A stretch of DNA of 64,000 nucleotides from a virus. The notes beneath the pieces were generated by a model. The model worked only from the letters and a program-made list of their open reading frames with translations. It searched no databases and was not told where the DNA came from. The first letter of the stretch is position 1; each line of letters begins with the position of its first letter. Both the position numbers and the translations under genes were made by a program. The stretch is from positions 1-64,000 of IMG/VR virus record IMGVR_UViG_3300031857_000123; one strand, given 5' to 3'. Below, piece by piece: positions 48,638 through 59,569 of this stretch.

Positions 48638-48755
48638 CGTAGTCTTCTTTGCCTACGCCACATTCTGGGCATTCAAAATCGTCTGGCAAATCTTCCCAAC
48701 GACCTTCTAGTTCTTCATTGTGAACGTGGTCACATACTACACAAATTCGTGTCAT
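48621..48755 (-). CDS. Rubredoxin
   Basis: 44 residues. CVVC (5-8) and CPEC (29-32) with 'EDLPDDFECPECGVGK' give the classic iron-tetrahedral rubredoxin, slightly shorter than the usual 52. It is coupled to the rubrerythrin gene by an ATGA overlap, so the two form an electron-transfer pair. Confidence 0.88.
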   Translation of the reverse strand: MTRICVVCDHVHNEELEGRWEDLPDDFECPECGVGKEDYVEFED

Positions 48756-49204
48756 TGTACGGTCTCCCAGACTTGTTGATATGCTTCTGCATGACGTTGC
48801 TCGACACGCTTGAGTGCTGCAAAACGCTTTTCAGCTTTGGCCAATACTTTGGCAAATGCTTCAGCATGTTCACGTGACTCAGCAGTTTGATGACGCACCT
48901 CAATTAAGGCTGCTTCGTTGTTTTCTCGTTCTGCGGCTTCTTCCATGCGAGGATACATTTCAGTATACTCGTAGGTTTCGCCTTCAATGGCTTTTTCCAA
49001 GCATACTTTGGTTGAGGGTCGCCCAATAAGTAACTCAAGATGACCCCAAGCATGTTTTAGTTCCTGGTCGGCTGTATGCTCGAAGTGTTTTGCAACATCT
49101 TCGAATCCATCTTCACGTGCAATTTTAGCAAAGTAGCGATACTTAATATGAGCCATAGACTCACCTGCTAGTGCACTCTCTAAATTTTGTAATGTTAGTG
49201 ACAT
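48752..49204 (-). CDS. Rubrerythrin (ferritin-like diiron domain)
   Basis: 150 residues. The first helix pair carries 'ALAGESMAHIKYRYFAKIA' and 'FEHTADQELKHAWGH' (ExxH), the second 'EGETYEYTEMYPRM' and 'TAESREHAEAF' (ExxH), the ligands of a diiron site. The C-terminal rubredoxin domain of full rubrerythrins is missing and is supplied by the separate next gene. It probably reduces peroxide during infection. A perfect promoter is upstream. Confidence 0.88.
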   Translation of the reverse strand: MSLTLQNLESALAGESMAHIKYRYFAKIAREDGFEDVAKHFEHTADQELKHAWGHLELLIGRPSTKVCLEKAIEGETYEYTEMYPRMEEAAERENNEAALIEVRHQTAESREHAEAFAKVLAKAEKRFAALKRVEQRHAEAYQQVWETVQ

Positions 49205-50344: not shown

Positions 50345-50447
50345 CCATATATAACCACACTAGGTGTCAAGGCTTCTCACTACGCCTGTTCGCGACTAGT
50401 ACACTAGACACCACCGTGGAGTTAAGGCTTAGTGTGGTTATATATGG
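50345..50447 (-). repeat. Intergenic hairpin 1 (18-bp perfect arms)
   Basis: Arms CCATATATAACCACACTA and TAGTGTGGTTATATATGG. The minus-strand 5' arm begins with the CCA of tRNA-Ser(TGA); the 3' arm ends at the ribosome site of 50179..50337. Inside, GGTGTC pairs with GACACC. Confidence 0.9.
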
Positions 50448-50536
50448 CGGGTAGCAGAGGAGTCGAACCCCATCCCGTTTCCGAGAACCCAGTTTTCAAG
50501 GCTGGTCGCAGGACCAACCCCGCTGCATTACTACCC
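50445..50536 (-). tRNA. tRNA-Ser(TGA)
   Basis: GGGTAGT/GCTACCC acceptor, anticodon loop CTTGAAA, long variable arm TCTCG-GAAA-CGGGA, encoded GCCA. 92 nt, class II. Confidence 0.9.
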
Positions 50537-50542
50537 ACTATT

Positions 50543-51127
50543 TTATTCTTGTTTTGCTTCTGATTCACGCTTGGCTTGCATAGCTTGCAGCCGCTTGACC
50601 ACTTCGTCCGAACCCATCCAAATGTCTTTGTTGTGCAACATACTGGAGATTTCTTCGCGGGTTAAAAAGTCTTGGTATACTTCAGTCATGAAGTTTTCTG
50701 ACCAAGTACGTTCAAACTGTAGCTGATCGTACATTTCGCCGCCTTTGCCAAATGTTCCAGCCGAATAGTTGTGAAACATAAACAAGCTGTGTGGCGTGAC
50801 TTCTTGCGAATGACCGTGTAGGAAGATCATGGTGGCTGCACTCATGCAAGCACCTTCTACACTGCACACAACAGTAGCATCTGTGTCCGACATTACTCGT
50901 AAGAACTGTAGTGTGGTAAAAAGATCACCACCAGGACTATTGATATAAATGCGAATTGTGTCGGCGGCCGATGCGTTACGAATAATGTCAAACCACTCAA
51001 TGTATTCCTCGGAATCTTGAATTGGTCCTGACAAATAAAACTCATGAACGTGTGCGACTGGCTTTGTGAAATTGGTTGAAAACTTGTTGGATTCAAACAA
51101 TTTAGGGTCGAGAATATTAGACTTCAT
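50543..51127 (-). CDS. ClpP-like serine protease
   Basis: 194 residues. 'IRIYINSPGGDLFTTLQFLR', then 'ACMSAATMIFLHG' with the nucleophile Ser96, 'FMFHNYSAG' with His119, and a later Asp region (NKDIWMGSDEVV). This is the ClpP/crotonase-like catalytic order. In phages such proteins are usually head maturation proteases; here the gene is away from structural genes and immediately downstream of a phage tmRNA. It begins 11 nt after hairpin 2, with AAAGGAACTT as ribosome site. Confidence 0.85.
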   Translation of the reverse strand: MKSNILDPKLFESNKFSTNFTKPVAHVHEFYLSGPIQDSEEYIEWFDIIRNASAADTIRIYINSPGGDLFTTLQFLRVMSDTDATVVCSVEGACMSAATMIFLHGHSQEVTPHSLFMFHNYSAGTFGKGGEMYDQLQFERTWSENFMTEVYQDFLTREEISSMLHNKDIWMGSDEVVKRLQAMQAKRESEAKQE

Positions 51128-51137
51128 AAGTTCCTTT

Positions 51138-51221
51138 ACTATATTTAAGTACTCTAGCTAGCCAAGGAGCCCTTGCTGTTAGGCAAGGTGGGGTTTTAAC
51201 CCAAAAGTACTTAAATATAGT
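51138..51221 (-). repeat. Intergenic hairpin 2 (16-bp perfect arms), 3' side of tmRNA
   Basis: ACTATATTTAAGTACT pairs perfectly with AGTACTTAAATATAGT. It begins one base after the last recognisable tmRNA stem and ends before the ClpP-like start. Inside are GGGTT/AACCC and CCTTGC/GCAAGG hairpins. Arms resemble those of hairpin 3. Confidence 0.9.
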
Positions 51222-51265
51222 GCCAGTATTCTGTTACGAGGAACTGGCCAAACCCTAAGCAGCAA

Positions 51266-51298
51266 TTAAGCTGCTAAAGCGTAAACTTGATCGTTTGC
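51266..51298 (-). other. tmRNA tag-peptide reading frame
   Basis: Codons GCA to TAA encode ANDQVYALAA. The terminal ALAA is the degron read by host ClpXP and related proteases. Confidence 0.93.
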
Positions 51299-51419
51299 GT
51301 TTATTTTTGTTTTGCTTCTGCAAATGGGAACAACCCCAATCTTAAGGCTTCTGCTTTACCTAGTTGTCTACGTCTCTACTCTTAGCCCAATCGATCCTGT
51401 GTCAGGCCCATCAAAAGAA

Positions 51420-51494
51420 AACTGAATTCAGGCTCTATGTCCTGACCATATGCTTACGCCGTGATGCACGTTGTACACCGTGTCAATTTTCTTT
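51420..51494 (-). other. tmRNA intervening segment with long stem
   Basis: The segment between CCA and the mature 5' end starts AAAGAAAATTGA and ends TCAGTTTTCTTTTGAT. Together with the flanking acceptor bases it forms an 18-position helix with one U-G and one mismatch. It is removed in two-piece tmRNAs. Confidence 0.8.
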
Positions 51495-51554
51495 TGGTGG
51501 ACCTGGCGGGCACTGCCCCCGCGTGTCGAACTCTTTTGGGTCGGCTTCATACAA

Positions 51555-51646
51555 CCATATTTAAGTACTCTAGTTTGGATTCAAACCTTGTTCTAGTCTT
51601 GTCGATCTGCGCTTCTCACAGTGCTGACCAGAGTACATAAATATGG
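51555..51646 (-). repeat. Intergenic hairpin 3 (17-position arms), 5' side of tmRNA
   Basis: CCATATTTAAGTACTCT against AGAGTACATAAATATGG, one U-U mismatch in the minus-strand RNA. It fills the whole space from the CCA of tRNA-Thr to the first base of the tmRNA acceptor piece. A GTTTG/CAAAC hairpin lies inside. Confidence 0.9.
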
Positions 51647-51717
51647 TGCCCCATGACAGAATCGAACTGCCGTAACCTGATTACAAAACAGGTGTAATAC
51701 CATTATACTAATAGGGC
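51644..51717 (-). tRNA. tRNA-Thr(TGT)
   Basis: GCCCTAT/ATGGGGC acceptor, anticodon loop TTTGTAA, T-loop TTCGATT, encoded ACCA. Anticodon stem closed by a U-U. Confidence 0.9.
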
Positions 51718-52719: not shown

Positions 52720-52820
52720 ATATTTAATTCTAGTGCCTGGTCGCAATCTCCAGGTAGCTTCAGCAATGGAAGGAACATTGCCTACACACTATAGCCAGTG
52801 AATTCACTAGAATTAAATAT
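52720..52820 (-). repeat. Intergenic hairpin 4 (16-bp perfect arms), cloverleaf-like interior
   Basis: ATATTTAATTCTAGTG pairs perfectly with CACTAGAATTAAATAT. The interior contains three hairpins in a row on the minus strand: CACT/AGTG, GCAATG/CATTGC with 7-nt loop, and CCTGG/CCAGG. The whole ends exactly at tRNA-Asn. Confidence 0.88.
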
Positions 52821-54785: not shown

Positions 54786-54907
54786 TACCATATTTGAACA
54801 CACTAGCACCCACTTTTGCAACGTGTACTTTGTTGCCTAGACGTGTTGCCTTGCAAGGATTAAACAAGTGGTTGAACGCCAGCTTGCTAATGTGCTCAAA
54901 TATGGTA
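54786..54907 (-). repeat. Intergenic hairpin 5 (23-position arms)
   Basis: Arms 54786-54808 and 54885-54907. Two positions are not Watson-Crick: they are A-C on the plus strand but U-G and G-U in minus-strand RNA, so the helix is complete only as minus-strand RNA. It begins with the ACCA of tRNA-Lys and stops 1 nt before tRNA-Ser(GCT). CCACTT/AAGTGG lies inside. Confidence 0.9.
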
Positions 54908-55266: not shown

Positions 55267-55434
55267 TTATACTTTTATATCTACGTTTGTGCCTTTGTTA
55301 GGGTCTACATTTCTGTAATACACCACTTGTTGCACAAACTGTTTATTGTTACTGTCTACCCTAGTTGTATAGACTATTTCTCGTACCTTACCCATGTAAG
55401 GTGAGAATGTTCTTGATACGCTAATTGTTTCCAT
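55267..55434 (-). CDS. Small protein starting inside a hairpin arm
   Basis: 55 residues (METISVSRTFSPYMGKVREI...). The ATG is part of the 3' arm of hairpin 6 and no Shine-Dalgarno sequence precedes it. It ends one base before tRNA-Leu(TAG). Beta-rich, no family recognised. Translation may depend on opening or cutting the hairpin. Confidence 0.55.
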   Translation of the reverse strand: METISVSRTFSPYMGKVREIVYTTRVDSNNKQFVQQVVYYRNVDPNKGTNVDIKV

Positions 55435-55616
55435 ATTGTTGTATACTTTGTTTACTACCCACCCCGCTAAGGGTGTGTTTCTGGATTATCGTGTTCATGA
55501 CGCACGCCTATGCCAGAACCCAGACCATACCCACCAACTTTCCCGGGTGTTGATGTTCTCAAGCCTGCAAGGTTCCATAACTGAATTGGCCACTAGCAAA
55601 GCATACAACAATATGG
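55431..55616 (-). repeat. Intergenic hairpin 6 (20-position arms, long interior)
   Basis: CCATATTGTTGTATACTTTG against CAAAGCATACAACAATATGG. The one non-Watson-Crick position is A-C on the plus strand and U-G in minus-strand RNA. It lies between the HNH stop and the next small gene. The interior is about 146 nt and includes TTGCAGGCTTG. Confidence 0.85.
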
Positions 55617-55621
55617 TCTAA

Positions 55622-56131
55622 TTACTCAGAACCATGTGTAATTCTGTGACAATTAGCACACAGAACTTTTAAATTACTAATAGAGTTATTTTCTCTATCT
55701 TTATCTATATGATGTACTTCTAGTGCTAAGACGTTGTCAAAACCACATATAGCGCATTTGCACCCATAATGTTTAAGTGCACGAGTTCTATAGGTAGAAG
55801 CACCATCTTTTGTTCTAAAGTAGGTGTTTGAACAAGCTCTAGAACAAGTTACTTGCTTATTACTATCGCGAACTTCTGTGGTAAACATACTACCACAGCA
55901 AACACATTTTCTTTGTTCAAGCTTTAATGGAGGGATTCCGTTAATAGTAAAATGAGATGTGTCCAATTCATTACCGTCTAAGAATTGTTTGACGATTGTG
56001 ATATATTGCCCTTTTTTAGCGTATCCAAGTTTATTTAAAACTTGTGCTGTGGACAACGAAGTATCTACATACTCAAATAATTTTCCAGAAACTAAAGCTT
56101 GCTCTAGTTTATTGATTAAAACTTTACTCAT
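55622..56131 (-). CDS. HNH endonuclease
   Basis: 169 residues. An N-terminal 75-residue domain precedes a zinc-binding part 'CVCCGSMFTT...CSRACSNTYF' and 'CAICG', and the HNH core 'LEVHHIDKDRENNSISNLKVLCANCHRITHG'. It is a free-standing gene among tRNAs, like phage homing endonucleases. Low GC content compared with the neighbours supports recent arrival. It has its own promoter. Confidence 0.9.
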   Translation of the reverse strand: MSKVLINKLEQALVSGKLFEYVDTSLSTAQVLNKLGYAKKGQYITIVKQFLDGNELDTSHFTINGIPPLKLEQRKCVCCGSMFTTEVRDSNKQVTCSRACSNTYFRTKDGASTYRTRALKHYGCKCAICGFDNVLALEVHHIDKDRENNSISNLKVLCANCHRITHGSE

Positions 56132-56398: not shown

Positions 56399-56567
56399 TG
56401 GTGGATCGGGCAGGACTCGAACCTGCTAACTAAAATTATACAGCCCCGTAAGCAATATATTCGAATTCAGCCCACCTGTAACTTCATGTTTGCGACAGAG
56501 GAAGTAATCCTAGGGTGAAGGGGTTGTATGCCGGCTCTATGCTTTAACCATGTTAAGCTACCGATCC
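56399..56567 (-). ncRNA. tRNA-shaped gene with a 113-nt central region
   Basis: A perfect acceptor (GGATCGG/CCGATCC), D-arm (GCTT/AAGC with GG in loop), T-arm (GCAGG-TTCGAGT-CCTGC) and encoded ACCA are present. Between D- and T-arm lie 113 nt where a tRNA has about 22-36. This part contains ATACAACCCC facing GGGGCTGTAT (one mismatch), with AGGA/TCCT and TTCACCC/GGGCTGAA inside. No normal anticodon arm could be drawn. It may be a tRNA with a small intron or a new tRNA-like RNA. Confidence 0.7.
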
Positions 56568-56667
56568 ATATATTAGTACTTATTTTAACACAAGGGCGAT
56601 TAACTCCCACCGGATATATAGATTATCACTCTTTTGACGGCACGTATGTATAAGTACTAATATATGG
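56566..56667 (-). repeat. Intergenic hairpin 7 (18-bp perfect arms)
   Basis: CCATATATTAGTACTTAT pairs perfectly with ATAAGTACTAATATATGG. The final GG of the minus-strand 3' arm are the first two bases of the tRNA-shaped gene. Confidence 0.9.
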
Positions 56668-56845
56668 AGACCATCCCTAAATGGTCAACATATAGTCTTA
56701 TTACTGAGGGCGACAGCCCCACTGTATCTTAGAATATCCAAACATCCCTTCTACAGCGGCAGGGCGTTCTTTTGGTTGACGGGGCTTACACCCGCCTCGA
56801 ACGTAACTTATTCCTAGGGGCTAGAACTTGTCAGAGGAACGGGAC
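56668..56845 (-). ncRNA. Structured non-coding segment upstream of hairpin 7
   Basis: No frame fits. On the minus strand: GACCAT/ATGGTC, GGGC/GCCC tetraloop, TTCCT/AGGAA, CGTTC/GAACG around GGCGGG/CCCGTC. The stretch from GTTCGAGG to ACCAAAAGAA (about 56800 to 56763) resembles the tmRNA acceptor piece in order and spacing. Its role is unknown. Confidence 0.4.
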
Positions 56846-58108: not shown

Positions 58109-58555
58109 TTAGCTGTAAATACGCATAATCGGCTTGTAAACACTAAATAGTTCACGGTTGTAGATTTCGACTAGCTCTGGGTCCATGTAGTCGTAATTGT
58201 CTGGAATATCAAGCACAATGGCTTTTGAATTCATTAAGTCAACCAGGTCGTAGTCGGCCACAAACTCCAGCTCAAGCTCGTCTTTGTTGTGCGGATTCAC
58301 AAACACAATCTTGTCTGCCCAGTGAATCAAGTTGGCTGAACACGGCACTAGTGCGTAGTTAAAGTTTGATCCACAACTACGGGCATTGATGCCGTGTTGT
58401 GCGGCTAGAGTAGCGCCGGTTGGGCTTCGCAAGAGGCCAGCACTGCACACAAAAAGCCAGCGAGCAGCGTGACCTTGATGTGAGTTAGCATATGGAGCTG
58501 TGGTTTTAAAGATTGCAGCATTTCGCGTGCCTGCGGCAAAGTATTTGTCTGTCAT
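58109..58555 (-). CDS. Low-molecular-weight protein tyrosine phosphatase-like
   Basis: 148 residues. 'WLFVCSAGLLRSPTG' carries the C-x5-R-S phosphate loop (Cys42), and 'LDIPDNYDYMDPELV' supplies the general-acid Asp region. This is the LMW-PTPase order. Targets are unknown. It overlaps the UV-endonuclease gene by ATGA and has a consensus promoter in that gene. Confidence 0.8.
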   Translation of the reverse strand: MTDKYFAAGTRNAAIFKTTAPYANSHQGHAARWLFVCSAGLLRSPTGATLAAQHGINARSCGSNFNYALVPCSANLIHWADKIVFVNPHNKDELELEFVADYDLVDLMNSKAIVLDIPDNYDYMDPELVEIYNRELFSVYKPIMRIYS

Positions 58556-59562
58556 TTTAGTAGTTGTTGTGCAAGTGGTGTACTTGCTAAGTTTTTTTGT
58601 TTTGATTCACACATTATATCGGCAACTGGACTAAATGTCAAGGCCCAGTTATTCACATCCTGATTCCAGTAGTAATCACTGTGAGCACGAAGCTTGGCGG
58701 ATGTAAAGCCTAGAGCTTTGAGTTGCTGCAAGTCTGGTCTAGTGTTTGGGTCGTGTTCGACCAAGCAGTCTTCACGGCTGACACTATAGTGTACGACAGG
58801 ACGCACACCACGCCAGCTATCGCACACACGCTTAAAACGTTCATCAGTAGGTTCAATGTATTCTCCTGAGTTAATCCAGTGGTGGTGAATGTCAAGCACA
58901 AGTGCACAAGTGTCTACTAGTTCAAGACTAGCATCAAGACCCCAGGTAAACTCGGCATTTTCGATTGTTAGGCAGTTACGTGCTTCGGGGCTAAGACGAC
59001 GCATGGCGGCTTTGATGCCATTGGGACCTAGCTTACCGCCAACGTGCACATTGCACTTGAAGTCTTGAAACTGCTTGCCGTAACCCATGTAACGAATCAG
59101 GTCAGCATGATACTCAAATTCGGTAATACTATTCTCTACAACGCCAGGATTCTCACTTGCCAACACGCAAAACTGACCTGGGTGGAAGCTCAGACGAATA
59201 TCGTGTTCGCGAGCAAAGTCGCCGCACATACCTAAGTGAGCTTCGAGCTTTGCAACAACATCTGATTCAAAGTAGAATGGCATATAGTCGTCATGAGTAT
59301 ATGCAGGCAACATATCTGATGTAATACGAAACATACGCTGATTGTGCGGCTGCTTGGCAACCCACTTGAGCTGACGATAGAAAGCATTCAGGTTATGGTC
59401 AAGCAAACCCCACAGCTTACTACGCCAACCGTCCGGTGTCTGACGAGCAAGATATGTAATAGTTGTAGACTTGGTGTTCAAGTCTGGGTGTGCAGTATCA
59501 TGCTCTGTTTGAATTTTACAAGCAAAGCCAATGCGCTGAATGTTTTGATTAAAATATGTCAT
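58552..59562 (-). CDS. UV damage endonuclease (UvdE/UvsE family)
   Basis: 336 residues from ATG 59562 (a GTG two codons earlier is possible). The family signatures 'IRLSFHPGQFCVLASENP', 'VHVGGKLGPNGIKAAMRR', 'LTIENAEFTW' and 'LVLDIHHHW' hold the metal ligands of the TIM-barrel active site. It nicks DNA 5' of UV photoproducts. Fits a phage exposed to sunlight. Confidence 0.9.
   Translation of the reverse strand: MTYFNQNIQRIGFACKIQTEHDTAHPDLNTKSTTITYLARQTPDGWRSKLWGLLDHNLNAFYRQLKWVAKQPHNQRMFRITSDMLPAYTHDDYMPFYFESDVVAKLEAHLGMCGDFAREHDIRLSFHPGQFCVLASENPGVVENSITEFEYHADLIRYMGYGKQFQDFKCNVHVGGKLGPNGIKAAMRRLSPEARNCLTIENAEFTWGLDASLELVDTCALVLDIHHHWINSGEYIEPTDERFKRVCDSWRGVRPVVHYSVSREDCLVEHDPNTRPDLQQLKALGFTSAKLRAHSDYYWNQDVNNWALTFSPVADIMCESKQKNLASTPLAQQLLK
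58613..58641 (-). promoter_or_regulatory. Sigma70-type promoter inside the UvdE gene
   Basis: Minus strand: TTGACA at 58641-58636, TATAAT at 58618-58613, spacer 17 bp: perfect consensus. It would give extra transcripts of the phosphatase-like gene and tRNA-Arg. Confidence 0.8.
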
Positions 59563-59569
59563 AGCCACA

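Follow-up and report, generated by a model that had tools for sequence, protein, structure and literature searches.

A permuted phage tmRNA gene and its probable exchangeable hairpin cassettes at tRNA and tmRNA junctions

What does a phage carry when it carries a tmRNA gene with its two halves in permuted order, and what fills the gap between the halves? The question is raised by positions 51222-51556 of the window, by which is meant the whole 64,000-nt stretch analysed here (positions 1 to 64,000 of IMG/VR record IMGVR_UViG_3300031857_000123). The source record is linear and 68.9 kb long, with genes for tail fibre, DNA polymerase, a DnaB-like helicase and thymidylate synthase; the virus is a tailed phage. 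Its tRNA cluster comprises at least 23 tRNA genes by ARAGORN. All window features given below lie on the minus strand.

The region 51222-51556 is a circularly permuted tmRNA gene, and a chance resemblance is ruled out. The Rfam model tmRNA_permuted (RF04321) matched at 51556-51266 with 97.5 bits (E=1e-17; cut-off 47), and ARAGORN called a permuted tmRNA* at 51587-51175 with the tag ANDQVYALAA. The acceptor piece (51498..51556), defined by the RF04321 alignment, the sequence and a structural scan, contains the T-arm GCGGG-GGCAGTG-CCCGC (51522-51506), the 3' acceptor strand CAGGTCC (51505-51499) and A73 (51498), with an encoded CCA at 51497-51495. The coding piece (51266..51409), defined by the sequence, Rfam and ARAGORN, starts at 51409 with the 5' acceptor strand GGGCCTG, has the D-loop ACAGGATCGA and carries the tag codons at 51298-51269 and the stop TAA at 51268-51266. 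The stop is followed by the hairpin GCAGC-TTAATT-GCTGC, and the tail of the piece extends to about 51222. The CCA-bearing 3' half precedes the 5' half, and the ALAA-ending tag is closed by a stop. All seven acceptor pairs are formed between GGGCCTG and CAGGTCC, G3-U70 among them. The initial annotation had read the permuted two-piece-type gene, the acceptor pairing with its encoded CCA, the tag frame and the stem after the stop from the letters, and each of these readings was borne out. The spacer between the halves, which it had put at 75 nt, is 85 nt long (51494-51410), and it had overlooked that this spacer is a hairpin and that two more hairpins (51647-51554 and 51221-51138) bracket the gene. 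By gene layout the tmRNA is of the two-piece type, from which maturation into two pieces would be predicted.

A decaying or decoy copy that gives no support to trans-translation is hardly credible here, since all defining parts are intact in the window gene and most relatives keep the ALAA end of the tag. Such copies do have a precedent in tmRNA variants that have no tag frame, of which the one in phage DS6A inhibits the endogenous tmRNA (PMC11915505).

Two-piece forms account for 53 of 133 unique phage tmRNAs (PMC9004378), and a tmRNA database holds 79 bacteriophage sequences (PMC11915505). Because two-piece phage tmRNAs have already been published, the window tmRNA itself belongs to a known kind, and the earlier view of the permuted form as unusual in phages is not supported. 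The published two-piece counts may even be low, since most viral permuted tmRNAs with an alpha-type T-loop escape ARAGORN (L098-L176). A further permuted tmRNA, unannotated, was found at 1756-2043 (99.9 bits) in the cultured Erythrobacter phage XM05 (L249, PV416404), where the gene behind it carries the annotation HslV family peptidase.

The T-loop GGCAGTG had been taken for a possible specialisation. Among 33 permuted tmRNAs of alphaproteobacteria accepted by a strict structural parser, however, 32 have GGCGGTA, GGCAGTA or GGCAGTG, accompanied by a D-loop that resembles ACAGGATCGACG, and the loop is thus the usual alphaproteobacterial form. A virus-specific T-loop was dropped as a candidate. 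The pattern search that gave 10 bacterial versus at least 120 viral matches was misleading, because the pattern fixed stem bases that are absent from alphaproteobacteria, where sampling showed the loop to be normal. One-piece tmRNAs with the GGCAGTG loop were also seen, in MAG contigs of Elusimicrobia, Gracilibacteria and Nomurabacteria (L089, L091, L092). Inside the viral lineage of the window the T-loop varies: most relatives have TTCGACT or a similar loop, GGCAGTG occurs in the window, L005, L011, L012, L016 and L018, and TGCGAAT or TGCAAAT is seen in others. The window gene thus has an alpha-type elbow in a lineage where the TTC loop prevails. As to the betaproteobacterial source suggested initially, the score with beta_tmRNA (RF01850), 70.6 bits, does exceed the 57.4 bits with alpha_tmRNA (RF01849), yet it is the alpha score that lies above its cut-off of 50 while the beta score falls below its cut-off of 84. 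The Rfam comparison put forward as a check thus ended with a match to the permuted model and a beta score short of its threshold. The source could thus be alpha- or betaproteobacterial, and the RNA is possibly a mosaic.

The next gene after the tmRNA, on the same strand, encodes a ClpP-like serine protease of 194 aa (50543..51127; Pfam PF00574, E=3.5e-11, 43.8 bits against a cut-off of 20.2), for which ClpP matches in PDB were also found. Its predicted triad, Ser96, His119 and Asp168, is invariant in 95 of 95 aligned relatives. Among 80 IMG/VR loci carrying the ClpP-like protein, ARAGORN identified a permuted tmRNA in 38, and a structural scan added six tmRNA loci (L011, L012, L018, L030, L072, L076). 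These tmRNAs lie mostly within about 1 kb upstream of the clpP-like gene, and the tmRNA-clpP neighbourhood is conserved in this virus lineage. A general rule pairing ClpP with phage tmRNAs of the GGCAGTG type was rejected, as clpP is rarely near the tmRNA in other such phages. Searches of related viral records returned no SmpB family member (0 of 25 records), no RNase III (0 of 19) and no AAA_2, ClpX-type, protein (0 of 19); many of these records are fragmentary, so the missing genes are not proven absent. An unfoldase of the host could serve the ClpP-like protease.

The tmRNA gene is flanked on each side by an abutting hairpin. The upstream hairpin cassette (51554..51647) spans from tRNA-Thr to the tmRNA, with the ACCA of tRNA-Thr inside its 5' arm, and the downstream one (51138..51221) runs from the tmRNA to the clpP-like gene with perfect arms of 16 bp. 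Inverted-repeat and spacer-pairing analysis identified the internal spacer (51410..51494) as a hairpin cassette as well, whose arms prolong the acceptor stem into a helix that, counted with the acceptor, has 22 pairs over 23 positions. Other cassettes of the window follow the tRNA-Ser-like gene (50345..50447), adjoin tRNA-Asn (52720..52820) and lie between tRNA-Lys and tRNA-Ser (54786..54907), where an arm contains the ACCA of tRNA-Lys; at this last junction L005 has only a short hairpin. A hairpin with a 146-nt interior (55431..55616) adjoins an HNH endonuclease gene, and another with perfect 19-bp arms (56565..56668) comes immediately before a tRNA-like gene. All six long-stem inverted repeats of the window with an interior of at least 30 nt fall at 50.3-56.7 kb, inside the tRNA cluster; the upstream hairpin, which has one arm mismatch, was counted as a seventh long stem. 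Known RNA families were considered as the identity of the window hairpins and rejected, as none matched in Rfam, and a search for two of the hairpins in cultured phages, over 50,697 phage records, gave no match either. A stem closing around the entire tmRNA was likewise set aside, being perfect in the window and weak in relatives: pairing across the tmRNA averages 77%, against a mean of 99.7% for the conserved local hairpin stems.

In 38 loci of the lineage, 106 hairpins with an interior of at least 30 nt were counted, versus 2, 5 and 6 in controls made of first-order resampled sequence. Often the 5' arm opens with the ACCA or GCCA that closes the preceding tRNA, and the 3' arm extends up to the next gene or stops just short of it. 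This placement exactly at RNA 3' ends recalls theta ribozymes (PMC10879173), and the hairpins might be new self-cleaving ribozymes that release the ends of tRNAs and tmRNA in the same fashion. That reading is very improbable, given that the ribozyme families of Rfam gave no match, even at E<=5, no catalytic core common to the families was seen, and the closing stems of 15-22 bp are unlike HDV-type folds.

Arms pair with their own partners at 99% of positions and at 46-60% when swapped between hairpins, a control that mainly reflects how arms differ from copy to copy, because the hairpins were selected for matching arms. Covariation was read from aligned families. In the family of 52720..52820, 19 of 34 pairs show compensatory changes across 9 relatives with 100% of cells paired; with the partner slid by one to three columns, at most 3 compensatory pairs remained. 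A second family has 12 compensatory pairs of 37. The compensatory changes reach the inner helices of the cores, which indicates that the hairpin interiors also fold as RNA.

Exchange of cores has taken place among sites as well as among related phages. With equivalent site labels merged, at least 12 core families were counted at two or more true junctions, in different phages (the raw 17 of the script includes label noise). In cross-junction alignments identity stops at the arms: the cores are about 95% conserved and the arms differ. The core of the window's internal spacer is also present in the tmRNA spacers of L041, L153 and L132, its upstream core family is at the tmRNA-clpP junction of L012, L014 and L016, and its downstream core family is found upstream of the tmRNA in L032. 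The core family of 50345..50447 occupies the tmRNA-clpP junction in L008. One core of 37 nt precedes the tmRNA in L003, L006 and L009, and L021, L040 and L082 have it within the tmRNA. A core of 90 nt separates tRNA-Tyr from tRNA-Leu in L013, L019 and L020 and occupies the tmRNA spacer of L014 and L054, and another is placed upstream of the tmRNA in L084 and inside it in L005 and L019. The tRNA-Asp/Asn junction has no hairpin in L082, a bare stem closed by a 5-nt loop in L014, and in L017 a stem like it that holds a full core; cores are thus open to loss and gain. Within a single locus, none of the core families was seen to recur.

These patterns bear on two other accounts of the hairpins. The cores could be small RNAs with a function of their own, released as stable phage ncRNAs when the stems are cut, and the junctions merely convenient sites to carry them. 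This is a serious alternative because the inner helices covary, and conservation of cores across junctions where arms are not conserved, together with the lack of a second family copy in any locus, speaks for it as well. It is nevertheless judged rather unlikely: there are dozens of unrelated core families, many of them singletons, with no shared motif, and the bare stem of L014 implies that the core is dispensable at that junction. Alternatively, the hairpins could act purely as mobile DNA, elements bounded by inverted terminal repeats that spread by a transposase- or homing-type process and have no role as RNA. The recurrence of cores at different junctions and phages, the minimal or empty sites and the HNH gene abutting one hairpin would agree with this. 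Against it, the arms vary by copy yet always match each other and often start at tRNA CCA ends, the inner helices covary, and neither target duplications nor families repeated within a locus were seen; mobile DNA is thus an improbable explanation. Both DNA mobility on its own and self-cleavage fit less well than RNA processing and insulation.

The gap within the permuted tmRNA takes part in this exchange, with 27 core families in the internal slot compared to 10 in the upstream and 7 in the downstream slot. The median values for viral internal spacers are 88 nt and 22 zipped pairs (126 viral permuted tmRNAs), against 34 nt and 10 pairs for those of alphaproteobacteria (n=33), in a comparison limited to tmRNAs passing the strict parser and, on the bacterial side, to alphaproteobacteria; long spacer stems also occur in a few bacteria. 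Some viral spacers hold, in place of a hairpin, ORFs of 69-123 aa (L107, L120, L140, L123, L147, L164, L166, L174), placed like genes inside an intron. That of L120, 69 aa long, matches PF09834 (DUF2061) with E=3.5e-20, and those of L123, L147, L164 and L174 have 104-123 aa. Probably the lineage carries exchangeable structured RNA cassettes whose stems are refitted at each site and which fill the tRNA and tmRNA processing junctions, the gap of the permuted tmRNA being a cargo slot for hairpins or small protein genes. No published account of such swapped hairpin cassettes was found, which is weak evidence of novelty as subscription journals are poorly covered.

The explanation favoured for the whole locus, to which a probability of about 0.6 is assigned, combines a tmRNA that looks fit to work with exchangeable processing and insulating hairpins. 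The tmRNA would be transcribed jointly with the large tRNA cluster and the clpP-like gene. The three junctions, tRNA-Thr/tmRNA, acceptor/coding piece and tmRNA/clpP, are each filled by a long-stem hairpin of the class shared with tRNA-tRNA junctions. The stems begin at the CCA end of the preceding RNA or close to it, and finish where the next RNA starts or just before. Such hairpins may prevent neighbouring RNAs from misfolding together, and their stems may offer a double-stranded cutting site to host RNase III before RNase P and 3' trimming act. If it is mainly the stem that matters for processing, the interior would be free for exchange, and cores could move between junctions and phages. The covariation of inner helices, unneeded in a mere spacer, is a point against this reading. 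The tmRNA, if it works, would rely on host SmpB and host nucleases; it would carry out trans-translation with that SmpB and add ANDQVYALAA to stalled proteins, and the phage ClpP may degrade the proteins so tagged.

Long near-perfect RNase III stems are known from bacterial rRNA precursors, where they enclose the mature RNA. The phage hairpins resemble them in that long, nearly perfect stems adjoin the ends of stable RNAs within a presumed joint transcript, and differ in lying between the RNAs, with pairing across the tmRNA less well kept. The T4 tRNA operon carries stable RNAs C and D, whose role is unknown. By description only, these are alike in being structured RNAs inside a phage tRNA transcript, and the exchange between sites is the feature seen here. 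The nearest published ideas are PeSL cassettes and theta ribozymes. PeSL cassettes of T4-like phages (Arbiol et al. 2010), as far as described where cited in PMC4503421, couple an early promoter to stem-loops and are likewise short mobile hairpin-bearing cassettes between phage genes; judged by that description, the hairpins studied here differ in lying at tRNA/tmRNA junctions, enclosing diverse cores and frequently starting at CCA ends. Theta (HDV-like) ribozymes share one conserved self-cleaving fold and occur in gut phages at tRNAs mostly without CCA (PMC10879173). Like the hairpins, they are structured phage RNAs that start where a tRNA has its 3' end, and 3' processing has been proposed as their role; compared by description, they differ from the long stems, diverse cores and encoded CCA seen here. 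With the permuted tmRNAs of phages (RF04321), such as that of Methylophilales phage Melnitz (PMC9004378), the window gene shares the order of acceptor half, spacer and coding half, the CCA, G3-U70 and the ALAA tag. Unlike these, it has an alpha-type elbow among mostly TTC T-loop relatives, a hairpin-cassette spacer, hairpins on both flanks and an adjoining clpP-like gene.

On these data, the gap within a two-piece tmRNA gene is more than an inert stretch: phages have there a variable slot of a kind common to tRNA junctions. The cutting of phage tRNA/tmRNA transcripts becomes testable, a set of covarying RNA families that have no Rfam match is provided, and the conserved tmRNA-ClpP neighbourhood points to phage-directed tagging and proteolysis.

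Several other genes of the cluster were observed. The HNH endonuclease gene lies at 55622-56131, directly beside the hairpin 55431-55616, and RNaseH_like (PF04308; 51999-52604), rubrerythrin-like (48752-49204) and UvdE-like (58552-59568) genes lie in or beside the tRNA cluster. ARAGORN misses a tRNA-Ser(UGA)-like gene with a long variable arm at 50448-50535, which weakly matches the tRNA-Sec model (34.8 bits). It also misses a tRNA-like gene of about 170 nt at 56399-56568 with the acceptor GGATCGG/CCGATCC-ACCA. The D-arm and T-arm of this gene are present, and an insert of ~85 nt replaces the anticodon arm; it is possibly an intron-bearing or broken tRNA.
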